Positions 18,314-21,353 of a stretch of 32,553 nucleotides of DNA are shown one piece after another; position 1 is the stretch's first letter, and each line of letters opens with the position of its first letter. Below the pieces are notes generated by a model, which worked only from the letters and a program-made list of their open reading frames with translations, was not told the origin of the DNA and ran no database searches. A program made the translations under genes and the position numbers. Source of the stretch: an uncultured bacterium (GTDB lineage: Bacteria > Krumholzibacteriota > Krumholzibacteriia > LZORAL124-64-63); NCBI GenBank assembly GCA_903912525.1, contig CAIWHK010000056.1, positions 1 to 32,553 of the forward strand, in the 5' to 3' direction.

Positions 18314-18353
18314 ATGAACAGGGGCCCGGGCAAATGCCCGGGCCCCTGTTCAT
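18314..18353. terminator. 19-bp perfect palindromic hairpin between convergent genes
   Basis: The two 19-base arms (18314-18332 and 18335-18353) are exact reverse complements separated by only AA; the core is GGGGCCCGGGC. It lies between the crotonase-fold gene (ends 18219) and the small secreted protein gene (ends 18376), so it can act as terminator for both. It lacks a clear T-tract on either side, and the stem is unusually long and perfect. The rest of the gap (18220-18313) shows nothing recognisable. Confidence 0.65.
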
Positions 18354-18375: not shown

Positions 18376-18951
18376 CTAGCGGAACAGGCTCTTCACGCTG
18401 CCGAAGCTGCTGGTCTCGGCCGGAACGACGCAACCGTTGTTGATCGTGATGACCGGGCTGCCGGCAGCCGAGATCTGGTGCAGTTCGCGGATCGGGGTGT
18501 TCGAGCCCTGATAGGCGGGAACCTTGCCCGGCAGCGAATGGAAGAAGGTGTTCTTGATCATGATGCCGGCAGGAGCGGTGTTCATGACCATGAACTGCAT
18601 GTCCGCGATGACCACGGTGCCGCCGACGACCGCGAGGGGCGCGGCCAGGCCGACGATGTGCTCGCCCGGGTTGATGGCGGCGTCGATCGGGCCGGTGCCG
18701 CGGGGCTGGAAGGCCAGCGTCGTCACGTTCGAGTTAACCAGCGCCAGTTCCCAGGCGTTGATGTCGGACGAATTCAGCTGCGTGCAGACCAGGTACGCCG
18801 TGACCGGCGTGAACGGGGCCGCAGTGATGCAATTGTTGGTTCCGGCTTCATCGATGTAGATACCGACGTTGTCCGAGAACCAGTCGGAAGCGAACGCACT
18901 GCCAGCGAAGGCAGTCAGGGTCAGCGCGAGGACGAGAGCCAGCTTCTTCAT
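18376..18951 (-). CDS. Small secreted protein of unknown family
   Basis: This 191-residue protein has a textbook signal peptide (MKKLALVLALTLTAFAGSAFA, cleavage after residue 21). The mature part of about 170 residues looks all-beta: alternating hydrophobic stretches (VTAYLVCTQL, TVVIADMQFMVM, SPVITINNGCVV), three Cys, few charged residues and a basic SLFR end. It starts SDWFSDNVGIYIDEAGTNNC. I do not recognise the family. Composition and codon use (more A/T-rich third positions and Asn/Thr-rich) differ from its GC-rich neighbours, as highly expressed or surface proteins often do. AAGGAG (18959-18964) seven bases before the ATG and an extended -10 promoter suggest strong expression. It is a single-gene transcript ending in a long hairpin. 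A secreted or cell-surface role is likely; function is unknown. Confidence 0.85.
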   Translation of the reverse strand: MKKLALVLALTLTAFAGSAFASDWFSDNVGIYIDEAGTNNCITAAPFTPVTAYLVCTQLNSSDINAWELALVNSNVTTLAFQPRGTGPIDAAINPGEHIVGLAAPLAVVGGTVVIADMQFMVMNTAPAGIMIKNTFFHSLPGKVPAYQGSNTPIRELHQISAAGSPVITINNGCVVPAETSSFGSVKSLFR

Positions 18952-19059
18952 TTTGTCGCTCCTTGGAGATGATCACGGTGAACAGGGCTTCACGCTTGCA
19001 AGGTGCGTTGCTTCCCGTGGGGCGCAAATCGGCCCGGGAAATCGCTCACCTATGACAGG

Positions 19060-19068
19060 ATTATAGCA
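19060..19068 (-). promoter_or_regulatory. Extended -10 promoter of the small secreted protein gene
   Basis: On the minus strand TGCTATAAT (19060-19068) is a perfect TATAAT with the TGn extension. No good -35 box sits at 17 bases, as is common for extended -10 promoters. The predicted start near 19053 leaves a leader of about 100 bases containing AAGGAG before the ATG. Confidence 0.6.
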
Positions 19069-19286: not shown

Positions 19287-21353
19287 ATGAGAAAACTTGC
19301 GATGAGCATCGTTGCCATGTCGGCAGGCGCCCTGCTGCTGGCGTTTGCCGGCGGCGCAGGTGCCGCCGGCGCCGCCGCCCCCCTGCGCACCCACGACATC
19401 CAGCCGGAGGACTGCTTCACCCTGACCGCGGTGGAGAACCTCGCCGCTTCCCCGGACGGCGCCCTGGTCGCCTATACGGAGAACCGCTGGGCCGAGGGCA
19501 AGAAGGGCCGGACCAACGACTTGTGGGTCGCTGCGGTGACCGGCGGTCCGGCCCGGCGCCTGACCTTCGACGGCTTCGGGGGCGGCGGCTGCACCTGGTC
19601 CCCGGACGGTCGCTGGCTGTACTTCCTGGGCAAGGACAAGGCGGGCCGGGAAGCGCCCCCGCATGACGGCACCCCCCAGGTCTGGCGCCTGGCGCCCGAG
19701 GGCAGCACCCCCGTGCCGGTCACCCGTTTTGCCGACGGCGTCGAATCCTTCGTCTTGTCTCCCGACGGGAAGTCCCTGTACTACACGGTCAGCCGCGAGG
19801 AGACGGACGACGAGTTCGGCGACCTCCTCGGCAAGTACGACGACCTGCGCTACGGGCACGGTGTCCGCGACCTGACCGAGGTGCGCCGCCTGGACCTCGA
19901 CACCTGGCGCGACGAGGTCGCGGTGGCCGCCACGCGGGTCATCCACGACATGGATCTCTCGCCGGACGGCAGTCGCCTGGCGCTGCTGACCACCACCGAC
20001 AACGAGCTCATCTTCAACGAGGGCTGGTCGCGCGTCGAGATCGTCGACCTGGTCGGCGGCAAGGTCACCGAGGTGACGAACCAGGCCTGGCGCGACGGCC
20101 ACAAGTCGCCCTACGGCTGGCTCGAGGACCTGGCCTGGGCGCCCGACGGCAAGGCGCTCGCCTTCGCGATCTCGTTCGACGGCTATGCCTCGGACATCTG
20201 GGTGGCCGAGGAGACCGGCGGCGCCTGGCCGCTGCGGAAGGTCGCGCGTCCGGATCCCGTCAGCTATGACGGCGGCCTGGCCTGGCGCGGCGCCGGCCGT
20301 ACGCTGTGCTATCGCGGCGAGGCCATGGCCCGCGTGCAGGTGCTGGCGGTCGAGAGCGTGGCCGCCGGCTCACAGGGCCGCACGGTGGAGCTGACGAAGG
20401 GCGACCTCGTGGTCGCCGCCTTCGACTTCGACCGCAAGGGCGCCACGCTGGCGACCATCTGGGAGACGACCACCGACGCCAACGACGTCTACGTGGTGAC
20501 CGCGCCGGACAAGGCGCGCCGGCTGACGCGCACCAACCCGCAGGTCGACACCTGGAAGCTCCCGCAGATCAGCCATGTCAGCTGGGTCGGCGAGGGCGGG
20601 CGCACGTGCTGGGGCATCCTCGAACTGCCGGCCGACTACGTGAAGGGCAGCGGTCCTCTGCCGGCGATCGTCGAACTGCACGGCGGCCCCACCTCGTCCA
20701 CCCGCATCGGCTTCCGCCTGTGGATGTACGGCCGCGGCCTGATGCCCGCGCGCGGCTACGCCCTGCTGAACCCGAACTACCGCGGCTCGACGGGCTACGG
20801 CGACGCGTTCCTGGAGGAACTGATCGGGCGCGAGAACGACGTCGAGGTGAAGGACATCAGCGCCGGCGTGCGCTGGCTGGTCGAGCAGGGCCTGGCCGAT
20901 GCAAAGAAGATCGGCGTGATGGGCTGGAGCAACGGCGGCTACCTGACCGACTGCATGATCACGGCCGAGCCGGACATGTTCGCCGCCGCCAGCAGCGGCG
21001 CGGGCGTGATCGACCAGGTGATCCAGTGGGGCACCGAGGACACGCCGGGCCACGTCATCAACTTCATGCGCGGCTTGCCGTGGCAGGCGCCCGAAGCCTA
21101 CCGGGCCGCCTCGCCGCTGTACGGGCTCGACCGCGTGAAGACGCCGACGATCATCCATGTCGGCGGCAACGACCCGCGCGTGCCGGTGGCCCACAGCCGC
21201 GCGCTGTACCGCGCGCTGAAGCACTACCTGGACGTGCCGGTGCAGCTGGTTGAATACCCCGGCGAGCCCCACGGCCTGACCACGCAGCGCAACCGCATGG
21301 CCAAGATGCAGTGGGACCTGGCCTGGTTCGACAAGTACCTGCTCGGGAAATAG
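19287..21353 (+). CDS. Secreted S9 family (prolyl oligopeptidase-type) serine peptidase
   Basis: This 688-residue exported peptidase has a signal peptide (about residues 1-30, ending near GAAGAAA). An N-terminal beta-propeller region (about 40-420) follows, with PD40-like repeats such as WSPDGRWLYFLG, LSPDGKSLYYT and WAPDGKALAFAI. The C-terminal alpha/beta-hydrolase domain holds the catalytic triad: Ser548 in GWSNGGY, Asp629 in GGNDPRVP and His662 in GEPHGL. YVKGSGPLPAIVELHGGP and NPNYRGSTGYG are the conserved oxyanion-side motifs of acylaminoacyl/dipeptidyl peptidases of the S9 family. It probably works in the periplasm on peptides, though substrate preference is not evident. GGAGG lies 11 bases before the ATG. 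It converges on the PatB-like gene with only nine bases between stops and no obvious hairpin. Confidence 0.93.
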   Translation: MRKLAMSIVAMSAGALLLAFAGGAGAAGAAAPLRTHDIQPEDCFTLTAVENLAASPDGALVAYTENRWAEGKKGRTNDLWVAAVTGGPARRLTFDGFGGGGCTWSPDGRWLYFLGKDKAGREAPPHDGTPQVWRLAPEGSTPVPVTRFADGVESFVLSPDGKSLYYTVSREETDDEFGDLLGKYDDLRYGHGVRDLTEVRRLDLDTWRDEVAVAATRVIHDMDLSPDGSRLALLTTTDNELIFNEGWSRVEIVDLVGGKVTEVTNQAWRDGHKSPYGWLEDLAWAPDGKALAFAISFDGYASDIWVAEETGGAWPLRKVARPDPVSYDGGLAWRGAGRTLCYRGEAMARVQVLAVESVAAGSQGRTVELTKGDLVVAAFDFDRKGATLATIWETTTDANDVYVVTAPDKARRLTRTNPQVDTWKLPQISHVSWVGEGGRTCWGILELPADYVKGSGPLPAIVELHGGPTSSTRIGFRLWMYGRGLMPARGYALLNPNYRGSTGYGDAFLEELIGRENDVEVKDISAGVRWLVEQGLADAKKIGVMGWSNGGYLTDCMITAEPDMFAAASSGAGVIDQVIQWGTEDTPGHVINFMRGLPWQAPEAYRAASPLYGLDRVKTPTIIHVGGNDPRVPVAHSRALYRALKHYLDVPVQLVEYPGEPHGLTTQRNRMAKMQWDLAWFDKYLLGK

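Follow-up and report, generated by a model that had tools for sequence, protein, structure and literature searches.

What is the small secreted protein encoded at 18376-18951 on the minus strand of the window, by which we mean the whole stretch of 32,553 nucleotides analysed here, and where is it sent? The features of the gene and its product are listed below, one per line.

18376..18951 (-), CDS of a secreted protein of 191 aa; ORF, with orthologs L046 (90% identical) and L047 (85% identical)
18889..18951 (-), signal peptide, residues 1-21 (MKKLALVLALTLTAFAGSAFA); from the sequence, heuristic score 2.54, putative cleavage site
18430..18885 (-), unrecognised domain, residues 23-174, family A3/A4; in 46 of 80 phylum genomes
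18379..18429 (-), C-terminal tag, residues 175-191 (VVPAETSSFGSVKSLFR); from pattern searches and alignment
18959..18964 (-), ribosome binding site AAGGAG; conserved in both orthologs
19060..19068 (-), extended -10 promoter element TGCTATAAT; also present in L046, 117 nt upstream, and in L047, 118 nt upstream
18314..18353 (.), perfect 18-bp hairpin with a 4-nt loop and no U-run; kept in L046 and L047

The gene is real. As an earlier note on this DNA had proposed, its product opens with a clear signal peptide, which by eye ends at AFA followed by SD, its ATG stands 7 nt after an AAGGAG ribosome site, and a perfect extended -10 element lies upstream; the promoter, the ribosome site and the hairpin are all kept in the two orthologs, which come from metagenome bins. 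TGNTATAAT occurs a single time in the window, both strands included, 117 nt upstream of the start codon. The distinct composition noted earlier also holds, the gene having a GC content of 63.4% against 70.6% for the window, and the three Cys residues are found at positions 41, 56 and 174. The long hairpin terminator fared less evenly. The stem is perfect and conserved, and among the perfect stems of at least 12 pairs (loop 3-8) in the window there is beside it one other, of 15; yet it lacks a U-run, and the terminator scan found no terminator. The hairpin possibly forms the 3' end of the transcript of the gene. The adjoining gene at 19287-21353 (+) resembles a secreted peptidase with a signal peptide, which we take to be of the S9 type.

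The body of the protein belongs to no recognised family, as had been supposed. A check for known domains gave no Pfam, NCBIfam or PDB match for the window protein, across 59 diverse members of its domain family each Pfam or NCBIfam family had at most one match at E<=1, and a PDB profile search with the 59-member domain alignment returned nothing at E<=5. The prediction of an all-beta fold was not confirmed, since AlphaFold, run on the window protein and two orthologs (three sequences), gave a pLDDT of 30. A tblastn search of plasmids with the window protein gave nothing useful. On the other hand, the view that this is a secreted, lineage-specific protein with paralogs was borne out by the paralog search, in which the mature starts were much alike (G-I/V-Y-F/I-D); the domain family has 13 matches in the own genome and was found in 46 of the 80 phylum genomes. 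Taken as a whole, the earlier interpretation is partly supported.

The key feature of the window protein, overlooked in that first reading, is its C-terminal tag. It was first glimpsed through weak genome-wide matches limited to the final 23-35 residues of proteins that are otherwise unlike, and its consensus over the last 17 residues is VPxExx[ST][WF]Gx[VI]K[SA][LM][FY]R-COOH. The search for it covered 80 genomes of the phylum and the IMG/VR viral collection. With a first DNA pattern, [WF]Gx(hydrophobic)Kx[LMI][FY]R-stop, we obtained 34 matches from the own genome of 4.3 Mb and 0 from the reversed control, and 665 matches in 69 of the 80 phylum genomes with 0 in the controls; 557 of these 665 fell in the family that includes the window (f1), where 37 of the 38 genomes have a match. 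A second pattern, in which S or D may replace G, matched 66 of the 80 genomes (control 0). When the stop codon was removed from the pattern, the own genome gave 38 matches (reversed control 1), of which 34 abut a stop, three lie 1, 1 and 6 residues ahead of it and one sits in a 41-aa ORF; thus the tag is nearly confined to C-termini. The protein ends 8 residues past the W/F of the tag, and no transmembrane helix or Arg cluster is found there. Arg stands at -1 in all 34 own-genome tags, though the pattern demands it. An element acting at the DNA level was considered and rejected, because synonymous codons vary among the 34 tags (Gly written by four codons, Arg by four, and all three stops in use); Lys is always AAG. 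Strong folds are common downstream of these 34 tagged genes, where the median folding energy was -40.7 kcal/mol per 80 nt vs -29.1 kcal/mol per 80 nt for random stretches of tagged loci (n=400). A literature search, made partly under guessed phylum names, met no description of the tag.

The tag is modular. We grouped 122 distinct tag-ending ORFs by their bodies and obtained 40 clusters with no detectable similarity between them (blastp E<=1e-3). In an alignment of 40 representatives the column information stays at or below 0.61 bit up to -20, rises over -19 to -17 and does so sharply near -17. Since the pattern itself partly fixes columns -9 to -1, only the columns from -17 to -10 are independent evidence, and there V at -16 (26/40), P at -15 (20), E at -13 (24) and S/T at -10 (36) stand out, none of them demanded by the pattern. 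One might argue that the tag reflects nothing but common descent of all tagged proteins, with no function separate from theirs, for one large paralog cluster, which holds the window's family, makes up 68 of the 122 ORFs. However, 40 body clusters without detectable similarity, several known domains included, stand under this one tag, and conservation stops upstream of about -19, which makes such an origin hardly credible; pure paralogy was rejected on the same clusters.

The proteins that carry the tag have signal-peptide-like N-termini. Those of the own genome, 34 in number, are 127-381 aa long (median 217). In our signal-peptide test the best start codon was picked for each gene and the cut-off was set at 2.19, the lowest score among the 34, so that all 34 pass by construction and the informative figure is that of the controls, 10 of 27 other window genes at the same cut-off. 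For profile searches two further proteins, L007 and L009, were added to the 34 pattern-tagged ones. Among these 36, Pfam recognised three PPC domains and one each of CHRD, CBM_20, DUF642 and Kre9_KNH, with one weak match each to CBM_4_9, GBD_T9SS_assoc and CBM46; NCBIfam recognised one choice-of-anchor C and one diheme_GEGP protein and, weakly, two others. Choice-of-anchor families owe their name to the swapping of C-terminal anchors. Membership of a known CTERM family was rejected, as no such model matched among the 36 scanned proteins. On these sequence grounds we consider it probable that the tag is a sorting signal, of which the window gene is one client, and it resembles an address label, so far undescribed, that marks proteins for exit from the cell.

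Which machinery would read such a label? A lead comes from the window's own domain family. The fetched stretches hold 98 distinct ORFs with this domain, of which 57 end in the strict tag, 13 in a variant called by eye (e.g. SFDGLKALYR, SWSNVKALY), 20 in a type A C-terminal domain (CTD) of the type IX secretion system (T9SS), judged by reading (PNPFNP...KIMLLK type), and 8 are cut off at the C-terminal side and were set aside. The resulting split, 70 tag-ending (variants counted in) vs 20 CTD-ending, is an association and not a pair of proportions, because the stretches were chosen to hold small and large open frames; several ORFs on both sides of it have no N-terminus in the stretch. Most CTD-bearing members are long, 19 of the 20 having open frames of 577-1172 aa in the fetched stretches and one of 304 aa, while the tag-bearing ones range from 99 (cut) to 561 aa and are mostly of 200-270 aa. 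The own genome holds both kinds, L125 (782 aa) joining the domain to the CTD and P0001 joining it to the tag. At the locus of L125 (G000:C65:37500-42600) another ORF ends in the tag plus one residue. Domain relatives with a T9SS sorting domain, together with the presence of the tag on dissimilar secreted proteins, lend indirect support to the surface role suggested in the earlier note.

We argue that the best explanation of these observations as a whole is a modular sorting tag which acts after Sec export and is read by T9SS, and we give this reading a probability of roughly one half. The window protein, made up of a signal peptide, one unrecognised domain and the 17-residue tag, would be exported through Sec, after which the tag would serve as a modular protein-sorting signal. 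The outer-membrane machinery of T9SS (SprA, PorV, PorU) may then recognise the tag through its L-phi-R-COOH end, and the tag would be a minimal C-terminal signal which spares small proteins the full Ig-like CTD. Among the 80 genomes SprA_N was found in 67, PorV in 79, the C25 peptidase in 80 and the type A CTD in 80, the last by TIGR04183 scored on at most 62 candidates per genome. The own genome holds SprA_N, PorV and C25, with a C25 (PorU-like) gene directly before the PorV gene, although C25 alone is no proof of PorU. Since almost every genome of the phylum has T9SS genes, their presence or absence cannot link the system to the tag. At G036:C121:59043-66978 a single PorV gene is preceded on its strand by two C25 peptidase genes, perhaps duplicated PorU-like sortases.

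The sequence ends bear on the same question. Of 36 CTD proteins from the fetched stretches of the phylum, 33 end in [LMI]-phi-[KR]-COOH like the tag, vs 0 of 56 other coding-like ORFs, and 35 end in K or R. This shared L-phi-K/R end is a post hoc observation, and beyond the basic residue near the C-terminus motif E has no residue-by-residue match in the tag. The conserved Lys stands at -5 in the tag vs -6 in the T9SS CTDs of the phylum. TIGR04183 gave 0 matches at E<=0.01 among the 36 scanned tagged proteins, a CTD profile built here from the ends read as CTDs gave 0 matches anywhere along 129 tag-ending ORFs, and neither motif B nor motif D (GxY) was seen in the 40 representatives, which have no conserved columns before about -19 and no conserved GxY in the tag. 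A published account describes T9SS CTDs as beta-sheet folds with motifs B, D and E, long (69-82 residues) or short (40-55 residues), and reports that the short CTDs of Prevotella intermedia, of 40-55 residues, keep all three motifs (PMC11969387). Since the tag is shorter and motifs B and D are missing from it, we do not file it as a member of the T9SS CTDs; it may nevertheless work like one. That T9SS is the reader we regard as tentative, at a little under even odds.

The tag is also found on viral sequences. In IMG/VR the strict pattern was met on three contigs, and a wider pattern gave 19 stretches, those three included, of which seven are one repeated 20-aa ORF. S/T stands at -10 in nine of the other 12 (L168, L169, L170, L173, L174, L177, L184, L186, L187). 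By eye a signal peptide is present in L169, L170, L173 and L184 and a lipoprotein-like N-terminus in L183 (G at -10); L186 has no signal peptide, and L168 and L187 are cut at the N-terminus. PHROGs matches were obtained for six contigs, with a tail protein on L169, portal and terminase on L173, terminase on L174, portal, major head and tape-measure on L187, an Erf-like annealing protein on L183 and ParB-like matches only on L177. In L169, L173, L174, L183 and L187 the tag is the same as the bacterial one or closely matches it, and the tagged protein of L187 is Laminin_G_3 lectin-like. As the tag ORFs lie on contigs with phage genes, we infer that tailed phages encode tagged proteins of their own, which is an independent hint that host cells read the tag. 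An ORF at L169:5021-5719, which overlaps the open frame of the tagged one, has a weak P-domain match and the tag-like SWGQVKAKY a few residues short of its C-terminus.

Other readers and other roles have to be weighed against T9SS. The exosortase (PF09721 at E<=0.001) is present in 29 of the 80 phylum genomes, 16 of 20 in family f5, and has no match in the own genome or in any of the 38 genomes of the tag-rich family f1. Because of this 0/38 it is unlikely as a reader and was rejected. Its distribution is roughly opposite to the abundance of the tag. A dedicated machine other than T9SS and exosortase, be it a translocase of the outer membrane, a protease or a sortase, would account for this absence, for the lack of the CTD core motifs, and for the fact that tag and T9SS CTD form separate, mutually exclusive classes in the same genomes, 0 of 129 tag-ending ORFs having both. 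It would likewise suit five of the 46 good genomes (>=90% complete, <=5% contaminated) in which SprA_N found no match, namely G023, G024, G026, G066 and G079 with 2, 0, 11, 8 and 9 tags, respectively, three of them thus having 8-11 tags, though the SprA_N profile may miss divergent copies. However, no candidate for such a machine was found, and the shared L-phi-K/R end and the shared cargo domain point to T9SS, so that we hold a dedicated machine to be rather unlikely.

The tag might instead need no translocation machine and act, after ordinary export, as a docking or anchoring peptide which attaches to the outer membrane, to a surface polymer or to a partner protein. The aromatic, aliphatic and basic residues of WGxVKxLFR would suit an interfacial peptide, and no transmembrane helix follows the tag; but K, R and a free C-terminus recur everywhere, as if a defined end were being recognised, even though K and R are demanded by the pattern, and membrane-binding tails are usually less sequence-specific, and we therefore judge this role improbable. 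A quality-control or degradation signal for a periplasmic protease, with which a short and near-strictly C-terminal tag would agree, is more improbable still, for dozens of exported proteins would hardly bear a degron and the contigs with phage genes keep the tag on their own proteins.

Extended to the phylum, the reading of the tag as a sorting signal would mean a sorting system apart from the exosortase and from classical T9SS cargo, which reads a 17-residue tag without a transmembrane segment ending in K-x-L-[FY]-R-COOH and sorts dozens of secreted proteins in each cell, and which tailed phages exploit by sending secreted proteins of their own along the route of the host; this wider picture is possible, though we would sooner doubt than assert it. 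As a sorting signal the tag, being short and without a membrane segment, would be unusually compact, and it would reveal some of the proteins that an uncultured phylum exports. The tag also offers a handle on the minimal size of a T9SS-type signal.

Compared with known systems, the tag resembles the T9SS type A CTD of this phylum in being C-terminal, in sitting on exported cargo and, with Arg there demanded by the pattern, in its basic last residue after two hydrophobic ones, and the two share one cargo domain family; unlike the T9SS CTDs, it has about 17 residues and neither GxY nor a TIGR04183 match. With PEP-CTERM it has in common that a short region of homology, with V-P at its start, recurs at the C-termini of many exported proteins that are otherwise unlike, and that the types of cargo are similar, PEP-CTERM proteins including CHRD, DUF642 and choice-of-anchor members; it differs from PEP-CTERM in that no transmembrane helix or Arg cluster follows the motif and in that the 38 genomes of f1 gave no exosortase match. 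MYXO-CTERM and GlyGly-CTERM are lineage-wide C-terminal tags like this one, MYXO-CTERM also being found on dozens of proteins per genome. Both of these, read by myxosortase and rhombosortase, respectively, consist of a signature motif, a transmembrane segment and a basic tail, and the present tag is unlike them in having no such segment. In the case of PEP-CTERM and GlyGly-CTERM, it was the tags that led to the discovery of their sorting enzymes.
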